A DNA stretch of 41,739 nucleotides. Origin: Acidimicrobiia bacterium. Lineage in GTDB: Bacteria; Actinomycetota; Acidimicrobiia; Acidimicrobiales; Bin134. The position numbers and the translations under genes were made by a program. This document shows, piece by piece, positions 4,309-23,483 of the stretch (positions are counted from its first letter, which is position 1; each line of letters begins with the position of its first letter). The stretch covers positions 1 through 41,739 of the forward strand of contig JAJDTA010000088.1 in assembly GCA_022827405.1 (NCBI GenBank), read 5' to 3'. A model generated the notes under the pieces. The model was given only the letters and a program-made list of their open reading frames with translations. It did not search any database and was not told where the DNA came from.

Positions 4309-5886
4309 ACCGCGGTAGTGGCGGCTGCCCGTCGGGGAAAGGCGGCGGTGAAATGGGCCGTGTTCCAAATGCTGGCGGACCGACCCTGGAATGTGACCAG
4401 CAGGGTGGGGTTCGTGGTGGGGCTGGGGCTGCTGTTCATGGTGCCGGGGATGCTCTTGGCCACCCTGGTGGAGTGGGGGTCGTCCATTTCGGACAACGAA
4501 GTAGCTCTGGGGATGGGGGCACTGGTCACGCTGGCTGGTGGGGGCCTTTTGGTTACCTTCACTCGACTCGATCAGGACATGCCCCCGGCCTCGGTGTTCG
4601 CGGCGGTGGCATGGACGTGGATCGGCTTGTCGATCTTCGCCGCGCTGCCGCTGTGGTTCTCCGGCGAGTTGGGGAGCTTCGACACCGCCCTGTTCGAGGC
4701 GGTGTCCGGCGTCACCGGCACCGGCTCCACCGTGCTCAGCCCCATCGAGGGGACGGGCCGGGGCGTGCTCATGTGGCGCCAGATCATGCAGTGGTACGGC
4801 GGTATGGGGATGGTGGTGTTGGCGGTGACCATTCTGCCGTTCTTGGGGGTCGGCGGTCTGAGCCTCATCACCGCGGAGGCCCCCGGTCCCACTTCCGACC
4901 GGCTGGCACCTCGGGTGAGCTCCACCGCTCGGCGGTTGTGGGCGCTCTACGGCGGTATCACCCTGGCGATAGCGGCCGCCCTGATGATCGCCGGGTTGAG
5001 CCTGTACGACGCAGTGGCACATGCCTTCACCAGCGCAGGAACCGGGGGTTTCTCGCCCTACGACGACTCCATCGGCCACTTCGACAGCACTGCGGTGGAA
5101 GCGGTGATGATTGTCGGGATGCTGGTGGGTGGGGTGAGCTTCACCCTCCACTGGCGGGCGGTGTCGGGCAACCCGAGGGTCTATGGACGGTCTTCTGAGT
5201 TTCGCACCTATCTCCTTGTGATATTCGCGGTCGCGTTGTTCGCGTCGCTGCTGAACTGGCTGAACGACCTGTCCGATCTGTCCAACAGTCTTCGCAACGG
5301 AATCTTCGGCGCGGTGACCCTGGGCACCAGCGTTGGCTTTGGCAACGCCTCCAGCACTAATCCGGGCGGCGATTTCGCGGCTTGGACGCCGGGGGCACAG
5401 GCATTGCTGTTGCCCCTCATGGTCATGGGGGGCATGACCGGAAGCACCGCCGGGGGGCTGAAGGTGCTGCGCGCCCAAGTGATGGCGAAGTACATGCGGG
5501 TCGGGCTGCTGCGAGTGAAGCATCCCAGGGTCGTGGCCCGGGTGAAGCTCGGCCAAATGGTGGTGTCCGAACCGATACTCCAGAGGGTGGCGGGGCTGGT
5601 GGCCCTTTATGCGTTGTCAGCCCTGGTGGCCACCTTGGTGCTGGCCGCACTGGGCCAAGACTTGATCACTTCCTCGTCCGCGGCCATCAGCGCGTTGAGC
5701 AATATGGGCCCGGCCTTGGGCGATGCCGGGCCCACATCCAGTTACTTGGTGTTCTCCCGCCCGGCCCGGGCAGTGCTGATGTCGATGATGCTCATCGGCC
5801 GTCTGGAGTTCTTCGCCATCTTCTTGGTGGCGATGTCGGCCTACGAGAGAACCCGCCGGGTTTCTCGAGTGCAGCTCCGACGCTGA
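4306..5886 (+). CDS. trkH: TrkH-type potassium channel subunit, second paralogue
   Basis: This is the second membrane pore subunit in the Trk operon, 526 residues, longer than its neighbour because of an N-terminal extension of about 80-90 residues with two extra hydrophobic segments, as in classical TrkH. Pore loops read SGVTGTGSTVLSP (filter Gly140), SAGTGGFSPYDDS, GTSVGFGNASS and LSNMGPALGDAG, so all four filter glycines are present, unlike the upstream paralogue. The cytosolic-side region LGQMVVSEPILQRVAG and the end MMLIGRLEFFAIF match TrkH. ATG 4306 begins 38 bp after the previous stop, at the end of the 14-bp repeats. The gene converges with the aminopeptidase gene. Confidence 0.92.
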   Translation: MTAVVAAARRGKAAVKWAVFQMLADRPWNVTSRVGFVVGLGLLFMVPGMLLATLVEWGSSISDNEVALGMGALVTLAGGGLLVTFTRLDQDMPPASVFAAVAWTWIGLSIFAALPLWFSGELGSFDTALFEAVSGVTGTGSTVLSPIEGTGRGVLMWRQIMQWYGGMGMVVLAVTILPFLGVGGLSLITAEAPGPTSDRLAPRVSSTARRLWALYGGITLAIAAALMIAGLSLYDAVAHAFTSAGTGGFSPYDDSIGHFDSTAVEAVMIVGMLVGGVSFTLHWRAVSGNPRVYGRSSEFRTYLLVIFAVALFASLLNWLNDLSDLSNSLRNGIFGAVTLGTSVGFGNASSTNPGGDFAAWTPGAQALLLPLMVMGGMTGSTAGGLKVLRAQVMAKYMRVGLLRVKHPRVVARVKLGQMVVSEPILQRVAGLVALYALSALVATLVLAALGQDLITSSSAAISALSNMGPALGDAGPTSSYLVFSRPARAVLMSMMLIGRLEFFAIFLVAMSAYERTRRVSRVQLRR

Positions 5887-13430: not shown

Positions 13431-14123
13431 TCAGAACGGCTGGGCGTCGAGGAATTCCAGGGCGGCGTCGATGAAGTCGAAGGACTTGGGGGTGGCGAAG
13501 TGATCGACGCCCCTCAGGACCACTAGGCGGGCGTCGGGCAGGGCCTCCACGAGCTGATCGGCGGGGTGGGCGAAGTCCTTGTCGCCCACCACCACGAGGG
13601 TGGGAACGTTGACGCCGCCCAAACAGCTTGTGTCGAAGGCGGTGCGGCTGGCCAAGAGCGCGGCCAGGGCCTCCCGGTCGGCCTCGGGGTCGTCGGCCAG
13701 AGTGGAGAAATGGAGGGCCTCGGGGTTCTCGGGGTCGGGCTCGCCGGTCACCGCGTGAAGAATCATGCGGCTGTGGTCCTCGTCTCGCTCGAACAGGTTC
13801 TTGCCCACCCCCGATACCACCAGCTTGTGAAATCGCTCGGGCGTCCGGGAGGCAATGGACAACAGGGTGTAGGCCCCCAGCGAGAATCCGATGGCGTCGA
13901 TGGCCTCTTCGGGGAAGTGGTCGATCACGTGCTGTTCGAATTCGGCGTAGCCCTCGGGTTCGTGGGGCTTGGGGGCGGTGCCGTGGCCCATCAGGTCGAC
14001 ACCGATCACCTCGCGGCCCGCGTCGGCCAACAGATCAAACCAGGCGTTGTCCCCCCAGGTTCGCCGGGCCGAACCGGCTAGCCCGTGCAGAAGTGCGACA
14101 GCAGGTCCGCTCACCGCGCTCAC
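13431..14123 (-). CDS. Alpha/beta-fold hydrolase
   Basis: A single-domain 230-residue alpha/beta hydrolase, probably cytosolic. HGLAGSARRTW gives the oxyanion-hole strand, GFSLGAY the nucleophile elbow (Ser81), GDKD the acidic-residue loop (Asp181/183) and VDHF the catalytic His208. The cap region is small. The substrate cannot be told; the family includes esterases, thioesterases and C-C hydrolases. The GTG start at 14123 is used; no better in-frame start gives the first beta strand. It converges with gltD (13-bp gap) and lies about 40 bp downstream of the predicted RNA gene on the same strand, so that RNA could also be its leader. Confidence 0.85.
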   Translation of the reverse strand: MSAVSGPAVALLHGLAGSARRTWGDNAWFDLLADAGREVIGVDLMGHGTAPKPHEPEGYAEFEQHVIDHFPEEAIDAIGFSLGAYTLLSIASRTPERFHKLVVSGVGKNLFERDEDHSRMILHAVTGEPDPENPEALHFSTLADDPEADREALAALLASRTAFDTSCLGGVNVPTLVVVGDKDFAHPADQLVEALPDARLVVLRGVDHFATPKSFDFIDAALEFLDAQPF

Positions 14124-14160
14124 ACTACTGACGGCTGAGGAGCAAGTAGCGAAGCGCCCG

Positions 14161-14435
14161 AGAAAAGAAGGAGGCCCCGAGTAGCCTCCCGGCCGAAACC
14201 GGTCGACTTCTCGGGGCCGTCCCGTTCGGTCCCGGCGCTCCGGCTGGCTTGCGCCCTCCGGCTCCCCGGTCCCTACCTCCCAGTTCCTCGCGGCACCTGG
14301 CCTCGTTCCCGGCCCTCGGCTTTCGGTGGTGCCACCGACTTCCTCGGCCCGTTCCAGTGGCCCTGCGGAACTCTTTCGAACCCTCGCCCTTTCGGGCTCC
14401 TGCTCTTCCAGCTACTCCGCTTGTCTCTGGTAGGT
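14161..14435 (-). ncRNA. Putative structured non-coding RNA, family not recognised
   Basis: This stretch of the ~450-bp gap between genes looks like an RNA gene of ~275 nt on the minus strand. A sigma70-like promoter precedes it. Inside are hairpins with GNRA-type loops: GCCC-GAAA-GGGC (14397-14386) and GGC-GCAA-GCC (14255-14246) enclosed by CCGG arms. GCGGA/TCCGC could close a longer 5' domain, a CGGTGG/CCACCG palindrome lies at 14337-14324, and 5' CCTACC can pair with a later GGTAGG. It ends in a 9-bp hairpin followed by a T-rich tract. It lacks the marks I know for RNase P RNA, tmRNA and SRP RNA. A 6S/Ms1-like RNA or a leader of the hydrolase gene are alternatives. Confidence 0.55.
14173..14218 (-). 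terminator. Rho-independent-type hairpin ending the putative RNA
   Basis: Arms 14210-14218 and 14173-14181 form a perfect 9-bp stem (GGCCCCGAG/CTCGGGGCC on the minus strand) with a nested CCGG/CCGG pairing in the loop. It is followed by TCCTTCTTTTCT (14172-14161). The T-tract is interrupted by C, so efficiency is uncertain. Confidence 0.55.
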
Positions 14436-14441
14436 GGGCAT

Positions 14442-14469
14442 ACCATAGCGCGCAGAAAACCCAGGTCAA
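14442..14469 (-). promoter_or_regulatory. Strong sigma70-type promoter of the putative RNA
   Basis: On the minus strand TTGACC (14469-14464) is followed after 16 bp by TATGGT (14447-14442). The bases just upstream (14470-14500) are T/A-rich, like an UP element. Predicted transcription start is near 14435. No coding start with a ribosome site follows. Confidence 0.6.
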
Positions 14470-14576
14470 GGGGAAAATCAAAATCCACAGGGTTTTCCAC
14501 TGCTGTGAGTAGAAATCCCCAGGAAACCTAAAATTAACCACAACCTCCAGCCCGATTTCGGCCCTAAATCAGGCTC

Positions 14577-15332
14577 TCACGACCAGGTGCCGCGGGCCAT
14601 GAGCACGTCGCGAAGCACGGTGGGACGGTCAGTCATGATGCCGTCCACCCCCAGATCCAGCAATCGGTGCATCTCGTCGGCATCGTCCACCGTCCACACG
14701 TGCACCGCCAGCCCCTGGTCGTGAGCGGCATCCACAAACCGCCGATAGACCAGAGGCACACCCTTGGCCGTAGGGGGCACTTGGGCGCACGCCCCGGCTT
14801 TGATGCGCACAGGCAGCCCGGTAGCTGCGGCCTGGAGCTGGCCGACCTCTTTCGGGCTGAGACCGGTGCACAGCCGGGGTCCACCCAGGCGCCGGGCGGT
14901 GGCCAGTCGGCGCCCAGAGAAAGATCCCACGCACACCCGGTCGATGGCGTTGGACCGTTGCAAGGTGTCGATCAGCGGTTCGGTGGCCTGGTCGTGCTTG
15001 GGATCGACCGCGATCCTGACCTCGGGCCAAGCCTCCAGCAGCTCCTCGAAGCGGGGAATGGCCTGTCCTCCGCCCACCCGCACCGTCTCCAAGTCTCGCC
15101 AAACCAATTCGGCGATGGCCTCTGAGCGACCACTGAGCCGCTGCAAGCCCTCATCGTGGAACGCCACTAGTACCCCGTCGCTGGTGGCGTGCACATCGGT
15201 CTCCAAGTAGCGATAGCCAAGGTCGACGGCGGCCGAGAACGCAGCCATGGTGTTCTCCGGTCCCTCCGCGGCCCCACCCCGGTGGGCGATGGGTATCGGC
15301 CCCTCGTGGTCTAAAAACGGCCAAGCGGACAC
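14577..15332 (-). CDS. Glycerophosphodiester phosphodiesterase
   Basis: It hydrolyses glycerophosphodiesters to glycerol-3-phosphate and an alcohol. The 251-residue product shows the GDPD signature IAHRGGAAEGPENTMAAF (catalytic His and Arg-Gly-Gly), then ETDVHATSDGVLVAFHDEGLQRLSG split over the Glu/Asp metal site and second His, IAVDPKH, and the C-terminal VHVWTVDDADEMHRLLDLGVDGIMTDRP. No signal peptide is seen, so it is probably cytosolic. I chose GTG 15332 because an upstream open stretch runs antisense into the neighbouring gene and adds no domain. TAATCT (15345-15340) is 7 nt upstream, fitting a leaderless start. Confidence 0.88.
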   Translation of the reverse strand: MSAWPFLDHEGPIPIAHRGGAAEGPENTMAAFSAAVDLGYRYLETDVHATSDGVLVAFHDEGLQRLSGRSEAIAELVWRDLETVRVGGGQAIPRFEELLEAWPEVRIAVDPKHDQATEPLIDTLQRSNAIDRVCVGSFSGRRLATARRLGGPRLCTGLSPKEVGQLQAAATGLPVRIKAGACAQVPPTAKGVPLVYRRFVDAAHDQGLAVHVWTVDDADEMHRLLDLGVDGIMTDRPTVLRDVLMARGTWS

Positions 15333-15369
15333 CAGCGAGAGATTAGTTGTCGGGATAGATTCACTACCT

Positions 15370-21770: not shown

Positions 21771-23483
21771 TCATACGCCTTCGGTCTCGTCCAGGATTTC
21801 ATCCAACCGAAGGATGTCGTCGGCTCGCACTACTCCTATGAACGTGCCGTCGTCGTCGGTTACCGGAAGTTGATCGGTGTCATTGCCGTCCATCTGGGCC
21901 ACCGCGTCGCGCAGCGTCCACGACGGACGGGCCGTGGGCAGATCGCGTCGGGCGATGTCGGCGACAAGCGTGTCGTTCCACGCGTCGCGCTCCAACTCGC
22001 TCATCTGCTCCAAGCCGCACATCCCAACGTAGGCCCCGCCGTCCACCACCGGGACCTCTCGCTCGCGTCGACCAAGTAGGTGGATGTACACCAACTCGCC
22101 CACGGTGGCATCGGGGGGCACGGTTAGGGTGTCGGTGGTGAGCGCGGACGTAAGCGGCAGGGCGAGCCGGCGCTCCACTAGGCCCTCCCGTTTGTCCAAT
22201 TGATAGGAGGCCACCGAGCTGGATCCGGCCACCAGCTGCGACACCGCGGCGGCAATGAGCGCCGGGACCACGAACGCGGATGTGCCAGTGCTCTCGGCCA
22301 CGAACATCACCGCCGTGATGGGTGCCCGGTATCCGGCGCCCAAGAAGGCGGCCAACCCCAGCGTGTGGTACAGCCCTATGTCGTCTGTTCCCAAGGCTTG
22401 GCCCACGAAGCTGCCCACGATCACCCCTTGAACCGCGAGGGGAATGAACAGCCCGCCGGTGCCCCCGGCGCCAACAGTGGTGAGCGTGGCGATGATTCGG
22501 AAGACCAGCAGGCTGCCGATGAGCAGCAGCGTGTGCTCGCCACCTCGCAGCCATTCGGTGGCCTCCACCCCGGGTCCCAAGCTCAGAGGCTGGTCGAATA
22601 CGGCTTCGGTGGCCACCACCAGCCCGGCCAGCACCGCCCCGCCGACCAGGATTCGAACGCCGAAGGGGAACTGCTGCTCCAATCCCTTGGCCTGTCGCAC
22701 CAGCCAGGCGAATCCCCGGCCTCCCAGACCGGCGATCAACCCGAGCAGGGCTCCTCCGCCCAAGTGGATGATGCTGAGGTTGCTGTCGTGGCTGCCCAAA
22801 TCGATAACCGGGTCGGTGCCCAGCAAGGCCACGTACACCAGATAGCCCGAAGCCGAGGCCATCAGCGCGGGCAGCAGCGCCCGGCGGGCAACATCATCGC
22901 GGTAGGGGGCCTCCAAGGCGAAGATCACCCCAGTGGCCGGAGTCTTGAACACGGCGGCGATGCCCGCTGCTGCCCCCGCAGTGAGCAGCATTTTGGTCTC
23001 TTCCCGGCGCAGCCACCGGGAAAACAAGCCCTGGGTGCTCTGACCGACGGTGGCGCCGGCATACACCGAGGGACCCTCTAGGCCGACCGATCCCCCCAGG
23101 CCAATGGTGGCCACGCCGGCCAGCAGCTTGGCCGGAAGCTGGGACAAGGGCAGTCGGGGGTGGCGCTCGTGGAAGGCCCGCACATATTCGTCGGATGTCG
23201 ACGGAGTGGCACCGCGCCCGAGGTAGCGCAGGATGACCACCGCGCCGAACAAGCCGACAGCCGGAGCGGCCGCCTGCCACCAAAGCGGTCCTTCGAGAAG
23301 CCTCTTGAGCAGCACCTCGACGGTGAGTTGTTCGAAGCCGGCGACCAACAAACCGACTAGTGCCCCGGTGACGATGGAAAGCACCATCACGGCGGGAAAG
23401 GCTCGGCGCGGCCGGAACGAGGCGAGCAACTCCACGCCCGACCTTGCGATCCTTCCCCCTAGAAGTGCTTGGAGTGCTTGCAT
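21771..23483 (-). CDS. ClC-type chloride channel/transporter with CBS domains
   Basis: A membrane Cl-/H+ antiporter or channel of 570 residues. About 430 residues of ClC helices precede two CBS domains (LTTDTLTVPPDATVGELVYI... and DLPTARPSWTLRDAVAQMDG) that usually bind adenine nucleotides. Seen ClC motifs: GSVGLEGPSVYAGATVG with the gating Glu, TGGLFIPLAVQG, and GAGYRAPITAVMFVAE with the conserved Tyr. The first anion motif, GSGIP/GHGVP in most members, reads GRGATPSTSDEY. ATG 23483 starts the gene, 34 bp from the divergent glcD start. Transport mode (exchanger or channel) is not decidable here. Confidence 0.9.
   Translation of the reverse strand: MQALQALLGGRIARSGVELLASFRPRRAFPAVMVLSIVTGALVGLLVAGFEQLTVEVLLKRLLEGPLWWQAAAPAVGLFGAVVILRYLGRGATPSTSDEYVRAFHERHPRLPLSQLPAKLLAGVATIGLGGSVGLEGPSVYAGATVGQSTQGLFSRWLRREETKMLLTAGAAAGIAAVFKTPATGVIFALEAPYRDDVARRALLPALMASASGYLVYVALLGTDPVIDLGSHDSNLSIIHLGGGALLGLIAGLGGRGFAWLVRQAKGLEQQFPFGVRILVGGAVLAGLVVATEAVFDQPLSLGPGVEATEWLRGGEHTLLLIGSLLVFRIIATLTTVGAGGTGGLFIPLAVQGVIVGSFVGQALGTDDIGLYHTLGLAAFLGAGYRAPITAVMFVAESTGTSAFVVPALIAAAVSQLVAGSSSVASYQLDKREGLVERRLALPLTSALTTDTLTVPPDATVGELVYIHLLGRREREVPVVDGGAYVGMCGLEQMSELERDAWNDTLVADIARRDLPTARPSWTLRDAVAQMDGNDTDQLPVTDDDGTFIGVVRADDILRLDEILDETEGV

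Follow-up and report, generated by a model that had tools for sequence, protein, structure and literature searches.

Question and features of the locus

Does the interval between an alpha/beta-hydrolase gene and a glycerophosphodiester phosphodiesterase (GDPD) gene of this Acidimicrobiia contig contain an RNA gene in its own right and, if so, what kind of RNA would it specify? Throughout, 'the window' refers to the entire 41,739-nucleotide stretch of DNA that was analysed. An initial annotation, made from the letters of the window alone, proposed a new structured RNA gene on the minus strand, and our analysis supports this. Comparison of related genomes shows an independently promoted, structured, non-coding RNA under selection, as far as sequence can establish this. 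We are almost certain that the stretch is a real non-coding RNA (ncRNA) gene; no transcript data are available. The features of the region are as follows (all on the minus strand).

14577-15340: GDPD gene, upstream neighbour, start approximate (ORF, tblastn)
14481-14543: conserved phased array 5' of the promoter, putative activator-binding sites (conservation, repeat counts)
14543-14534: array site TTGTGGTTAA
14522-14512: array site CTGGGGATTTC
14502-14493: array site CAGTGGAAAA
14490-14481: array site CTGTGGATTT
14442-14469: sigma70-type promoter, TTGACC-16-TATGGT (sequence; conservation in aligned genus genomes)
14155-14436: predicted RNA gene, about 280 nt (conservation, z-score, covariation)
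14275-14435: domain 1, long irregular rod, 14435-14427 paired with 14283-14275 (RNAalifold, 20 genomes)
14386-14397: variable side hairpin GCCC-GAAA-GGGC within domain 1 (alignment A1)
14338-14323: tip hairpin of domain 1, UCGGUG-GCAC-CACCGA (RNAalifold)
14228-14273: domain 2, middle hairpin with a GCAA-capped tip (RNAalifold; two pairs changed on both sides)
14169-14223: domain 3, 3' terminal hairpin, intrinsic-terminator-like, core CCCCGAG-A-AGU...GGCU-A-CUCGGGG, the family signature (match to covariance model R2; covariation)
13431-14123: alpha/beta-hydrolase gene, downstream neighbour, outside the RNA (ORF)

The promoter is exactly as the initial annotation described it. Direct reading of the minus strand gives a -35 box, TTGACC (14469-14464), a 16-nt spacer and a -10 box, TATGGT (14447-14442). 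It is kept in the 19 other genus genomes of the alignment and, in many members from other families, a TTGAC-like -35 box is followed 16-18 nt on by a -10-like hexamer. The purine-rich stretch with GAAA- and GCAA-capped hairpins is also present. The claim of a closing 9-bp hairpin followed by a T-rich tract holds only in part: the helix GGCCCCGAG/CTCGGGGCC is there and leads into CTTCTTTTC, but the hairpin is longer than 9 bp. The T-rich tract lies 3' of the hairpin (14158-14170, minus strand), and a similar CTTTTC occurs in most genus members. The limits first assigned to the element also need correction, as the conserved block begins 5' of the promoter, at about 14543. The ends of the RNA gene itself are inferred from the promoter (5') and the terminator (3'), both of which are consensus-based calls without transcript data. 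The hydrolase gene starts about 35 nt past the RNA end, on the same strand.

Conservation within the genus

A DNA search of 60 relatives for the region identifies a related RNA with its promoter in 19 of 21 same-genus genomes (18 as long matches and one, G004, through its two ends). No proper copy was found by this search in the other two, G001 and G009. Elsewhere in the G001 genome (L026, contig C194, about position 22755) there is a sequence, GCGCGCTATGGTTTGCCCATCTATCGGAGA, which resembles the -10 box and the 5' start of the RNA.

In the oriented alignment, conservation runs from the block 5' of the promoter through the promoter and the RNA and stops after the hairpin. Identity among close relatives is 87-97% in the RNA body and 60-77% in the upstream intergenic DNA between the block and the GDPD gene. 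Because the body is better conserved than this intergenic DNA and its structure covaries (see below), the locus is beyond chance. In two divergent copies (L020 and L021) the upstream block remains 89-93% identical and the RNA body only 55-59%. Partial tandem duplications of the terminator end, 3' of the hairpin, occur in three genus members (L014, L016 and L017), where a TCGGGGCCTCCTGCTTTTC-like sequence is repeated once or more.

The length differences among the genus copies are not multiples of three, and none of the six frames stays open in more than 10 of 20 species, which makes a protein gene very unlikely. The protein frames had been judged implausible from the window alone and, indeed, none survives across species.

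Secondary structure and covariation

The predicted folding energy of the window RNA (14440-14155) is -150.8 kcal/mol (z = -5.2), and none of 200 dinucleotide shuffles is as stable. From the 20 genomes of alignment A1, RNAalifold predicts a consensus structure of three domains. Positions 14435-14275 form an irregular rod, 14273-14228 a middle hairpin and 14223-14169 the 3' terminal hairpin; a large central bubble is not part of the prediction. The terminal hairpin is composed of 9 bp, an A.A mismatch, 4 bp, a small internal loop and 5 bp, together with a 4-bp outer extension. The region of the side hairpin (14386-14397) is absent from the shorter copies L018 and L020.

Ten pairs are changed on both sides within the genus, compared with 2.2 in shuffles, and none of 500 shuffles reaches the observed values; helices 1, 4 and 5 of domain 1 hold seven of the ten. 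On the consensus structure 97.7% of cells are paired, and this falls to 31-51% when the structure is slid along the alignment. The slid comparison is tilted towards this structure, which comes from the very alignment being tested, and the two-sided changes are the stronger point. Covarying stems in homologous regions, which the initial annotation had suggested as a check, are significant both here and in the order-wide hairpin described below. At the level of sequence the locus satisfies the criteria for a stand-alone ncRNA, with promoter and terminator conserved together with the body, a covarying structure and no coding frame; the discrete transcript is a prediction.

An order-wide family defined by the 3' hairpin

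The first distant members were several weak matches in other families of the order, obtained by plain sequence search. All have a purine-rich body and the hairpin GGCCCCGAGRAGY...GGCUACUCGGGGCC, and in most cases a promoter can be recognised as well. Used as a pattern, the hairpin matched 22 of 298 order genomes (the gap range excluded the genus itself) while a reversed control pattern matched none, and all but one of the 22 looked like family members. The exception, L048, is coding sequence and was set aside as due to chance; so was a separate match, in G468, in which the hairpin lies right at the -10 box. A tighter pattern, applied to the contigs of 84,980 species, retrieved 83 stretches. 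Most of their titles are Acidimicrobiales, Acidimicrobiia, Acidimicrobiaceae or simply Actinomycetes, Actinomycetota or bacterium; three are Acidobacteria/Acidobacteriota or Bifidobacterium breve, and these are metagenome bins whose placement is unchecked. Viral contigs searched with the pattern gave no matches.

A covariance model, R2, was built from 48 diverse hairpins, including that of the window. It matches the window at 14169-14221 (66.5 bits, E = 1.4e-10, with the window copy in the model). With strict filters and E <= 0.01 it matches 89 of 248 order genomes, distributed over 27 numbered families (our own count), and 78 of 213 among the best assemblies. The other 159 of the 248 genomes have no R2 match under these filters. 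The hairpin core, CCCCGAGRAGY...GGCUACUCGGGG, recurs across the order with strong covariation: the 48 hairpins include 35 cells with two-sided changes compared with 7.7 after shuffling (0 of 500 shuffles reach this). Sequences retrieved by R2 but absent from the model include changed cores which remain paired, CCCCAAG/CUUGGGG (L284, L288) and CCCCGGG/CCCGGGG (L283). It should be noted that the order-wide set was collected via the hairpin itself, so the invariance of its core is partly an effect of selection and of the search pattern.

In a phylum sample of 296 genomes we found two convincing members outside the order: L293 (G323:C764, about 5307-5361) and L294 (G339:C117, about 5257-5307). In both, the hairpin ends a plausible body. 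The hairpin core of L294 is changed but still paired, and its RNA is predicted to fold as a rod closed by the 5' end and the hairpin. These likely members suggest that the RNA is older than the Acidimicrobiales.

Variation of the RNA body and its neighbours

The hairpin and, where readable, the promoter persist while the body and the flanking genes vary. With promoters placed by consensus, the distance from the -35 box to the hairpin ranges from 114 nt (L034) to about 550 nt in many members and about 710 nt in L072 and L092; the promoter could not be placed with confidence at about 20 loci. The inferred body measures from about 80 to more than 500 nt among the relatives. Judged by eye, the bodies cannot be aligned from one family to another, and the homology of the whole RNA across families would rest on the hairpin together with, where they can be read, the promoter and the upstream repeats. 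Without its terminal hairpin the body nevertheless folds better than dinucleotide shuffles in all 22 members tested (z from -1.2 to -6.1). One member from another family (L270; G278:C1:962000-967500) carries an internal tandem array, with a unit of about 110 nt, upstream of the terminal hairpin, and the body may be able to grow through repeat expansion of this type.

The genus and several other clades retain the GDPD gene upstream (tblastn), and pyruvate kinase is often close by, the clade neighbours being GDPD, alpha/beta hydrolase, gltD and pyk. Elsewhere the neighbours include LexA-like and CrgA-like genes (L043), CoA ligase, amidohydrolase, O-methyltransferase and others. These were judged by eye from ORF translations, without a Pfam scan, and not every locus was annotated. 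In other families the RNA adjoins unrelated or oppositely oriented genes. Because the flanking genes vary and because L020 keeps the RNA with no hydrolase detected beside it, the RNA is not tied to any single neighbour.

Upstream repeats and chromosome position

The four array sites of the window are spaced by about 20, 20 and 12 bp. From CTGGGG to the -35 box the sequence is 80-98% identical in the genus; values for flanking intergenic DNA are 32-77%. In the 160 nt upstream of 72 loci with a readable promoter, TGGGGA occurs 134 times (5.0 expected from mononucleotide shuffles) and its reverse complement, TCCCCA, only 4 times. GGGATTTC occurs 67 times (0.2 expected) and the DnaA-type motif TGTG[CG]A[CT]AA 18 times (0.14 expected), never in the reverse orientation. 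The counts are not independent, because the set includes many close relatives and the choice of promoters depended in part on a GGGAT-like motif close by, which inflates the GGGATTTC count. Successive sites are 10-12, 20-22 or 32-33 bp apart, corresponding to one, two and three helical turns. Both in the window and in the 72 loci, TGGGGATTTC / TGTGGAYAA repeats in a single orientation stand directly 5' of the RNA promoter, and some are perfect DnaA boxes. In the sampled parts of two complete genomes, about 0.75 Mb of each, the three-site layout was seen only at the RNA gene; its uniqueness rests on these sampled stretches.

In both of the complete same-genus genomes a GC-skew sign change occurs about 60 kb from the RNA gene (G006:C1, about 2158-2218 kb; G014:C1, about 1858-1918 kb), opposite the switch near dnaA. 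This sign change is a putative terminus. In a third genome, from another family (G278), the skew switch falls somewhere from about 510 to 735 kb, whereas the gene is at 964 kb, about 230-450 kb away. As two genomes of one genus count as about one observation, placement near the terminus is no more than a lead.

Comparison with known RNAs

At gathering score, neither the 41.7-kb window nor the distant copies contain a match to any Rfam 15 family. This was the check proposed with the initial annotation, and it leaves the suggestion of a new RNA standing. Relaxed Rfam scans give only chance-level matches, the region yielding generic GC-rich hairpins and others far below cut-off. The initial annotation had also seen no sign of RNase P RNA or tmRNA, and neither is found here. 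RNase P RNA of type A, which resembles the new RNA in being large, GC-rich and purine-rich, has no match at the locus and is encoded on another contig of the same genome (RF00010, 157 bits; type B gives none), while ARAGORN identifies no tmRNA in the window. The F6 sRNA of Mycobacterium tuberculosis (RF01791) is likewise a GC-rich hairpin with a GCCCCG/CGGGGC helix and matches weakly (22.7 bits compared with a gathering score of 46), but only this generic helix is common to the two, the match is below cut-off and the other strand scores too.

OLE, raiA, GOLLD and ROOL are large orphan bacterial ncRNAs: stand-alone, structured, lineage-restricted and of a function not known from sequence. The new RNA shares all these traits, but has no covariance-model match to any Rfam 15 family. 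The open-access papers searched contain no described Acidimicrobiales ncRNA (subscription papers and supplements were outside the search). We regard it as a new family of a known kind, the stand-alone structured bacterial ncRNA; that it also represents a new functional class is possible but has not been demonstrated.

Alternative explanations

The main rival is that the RNA is the Acidimicrobiales counterpart of Ms1 or 6S RNA, a rod-like RNA which associates with RNA polymerase to adjust transcription when growth is slow. Like Ms1 (MTS2823/ncRv13661; scr3559 in Streptomyces), it is actinobacterial and stand-alone, with a sigma70-type promoter; genus copies and several others are predicted to form a long irregular rod whose closing helix is near the 5' end, with short hairpins after it, and the genus copies approach the Ms1 length of about 300 nt. 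6S RNA is also a stand-alone, long irregular hairpin; that its model (RF00013) matches none of 13 genomes tested counts in favour of this rival. The silence of Rfam is not decisive here, since Rfam detects Ms1 only near mycobacteria (PMC9130861). On the other hand, Ms1 is most conserved at the central bubble of its long hairpin and in the adjacent helices (PMC4191392), whereas conservation of the new RNA peaks in the 3' hairpin and no large central bubble is predicted in its genus consensus, a difference from 6S RNA as well. The new RNA is, moreover, very variable in length, and the HAD hydrolase/oxidoreductase synteny of Ms1 does not appear among the neighbours seen. The position of Ms1 relative to ori is conserved (PMC4191392), while the new gene lies near the putative terminus in two genomes. 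The initial annotation had kept a 6S/Ms1-like RNA in view: as an identity this finds no support from the 6S model or from Rfam, but as a function it is not excluded, and we rate this explanation as unlikely though still in contention.

The other alternatives fare less well. That phased DNA repeats, promoter and terminator are all that matters, forming a chromosomal DNA element (for example, DnaA-box-like sites near the terminus) with an incidental RNA body, would fit the excess and single orientation of the DnaA-type motif and the closeness to the skew switch in the two same-genus genomes. The body is, however, conserved and covarying in the genus and folds better than shuffles in the 22 members tested, and the gene is much further from the switch in the third genome; this explanation seems to us improbable. 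We are equally disinclined to accept a CsrB-like sponge, or any other RNA that titrates a small RNA-binding protein through numerous GGA-rich hairpins. The purine-rich, GGA-rich sequence, variable in length and in its number of hairpins, would suit such a role, but the GGA-richness may reflect composition, and CsrA (PF02599) is absent from the genome of the window and from five other same-genus genomes tested, occurring in one of nine relatives overall. Least credible is the cis-acting leader or attenuator of the hydrolase gene, which the initial annotation had also considered. The short distance to the hydrolase start on the same strand is compatible with it, but a strong predicted terminator separates the two, no hydrolase is detected beside the RNA in L020 and there is no constant downstream gene in other families.

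Proposed function

We favour a stand-alone structured ncRNA of an Acidimicrobiales family which acts as a protein-binding scaffold or sequestering RNA and consider this combined statement probable rather than assured, the protein binding being inferred. A family of this type is indicated because the RNA has its own conserved promoter, covarying domains, a near-invariant hairpin, hypervariable length and independence from its neighbours. The function taken by itself, scaffold or sequestering RNA, is a working inference to which we give slightly less than an even chance. In this scheme an activator protein would bind the helically phased TGGGGA/TGTGGA repeats beside the -35 box and switch transcription, which would end at the 3' hairpin. 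The hairpin would also be where a conserved partner protein binds; such a partner is inferred because the stem sequence on both strands and the R.A mismatch are kept beyond the needs of pairing. The RNA would then act in trans, neither as a leader nor by base-pairing with one target.

A broader proposal is that this is an ancient actinobacterial RNA class of an undescribed functional type, spanning the Acidimicrobiales and at least two lineages outside the order, in which a structured body that evolves freely lies between a phased-repeat promoter and a fixed 3' hairpin and which works through a dedicated protein partner. We offer this only tentatively. An RNA that is kept across many families while its interior changes freely is likely to matter to the cell. 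The Acidimicrobiales are known mostly from metagenomes, and one hairpin and one promoter provide a handle for finding the transcript, its partner and its role. The RNA may also show what a branch of the Actinomycetota without detected 6S RNA (in the genomes tested) uses such an RNA for.

The phased repeats suggest sites for a cooperative activator. DnaA is one candidate, without binding data. A search for tandem DnaA boxes gave none in three genomes. In the dnaA regions of G014 and G006 (L138 and L139) no more than one or two perfect DnaA boxes lie within 1.5 kb of the gene and, given these few boxes, oriC of the genus may not adjoin dnaA.
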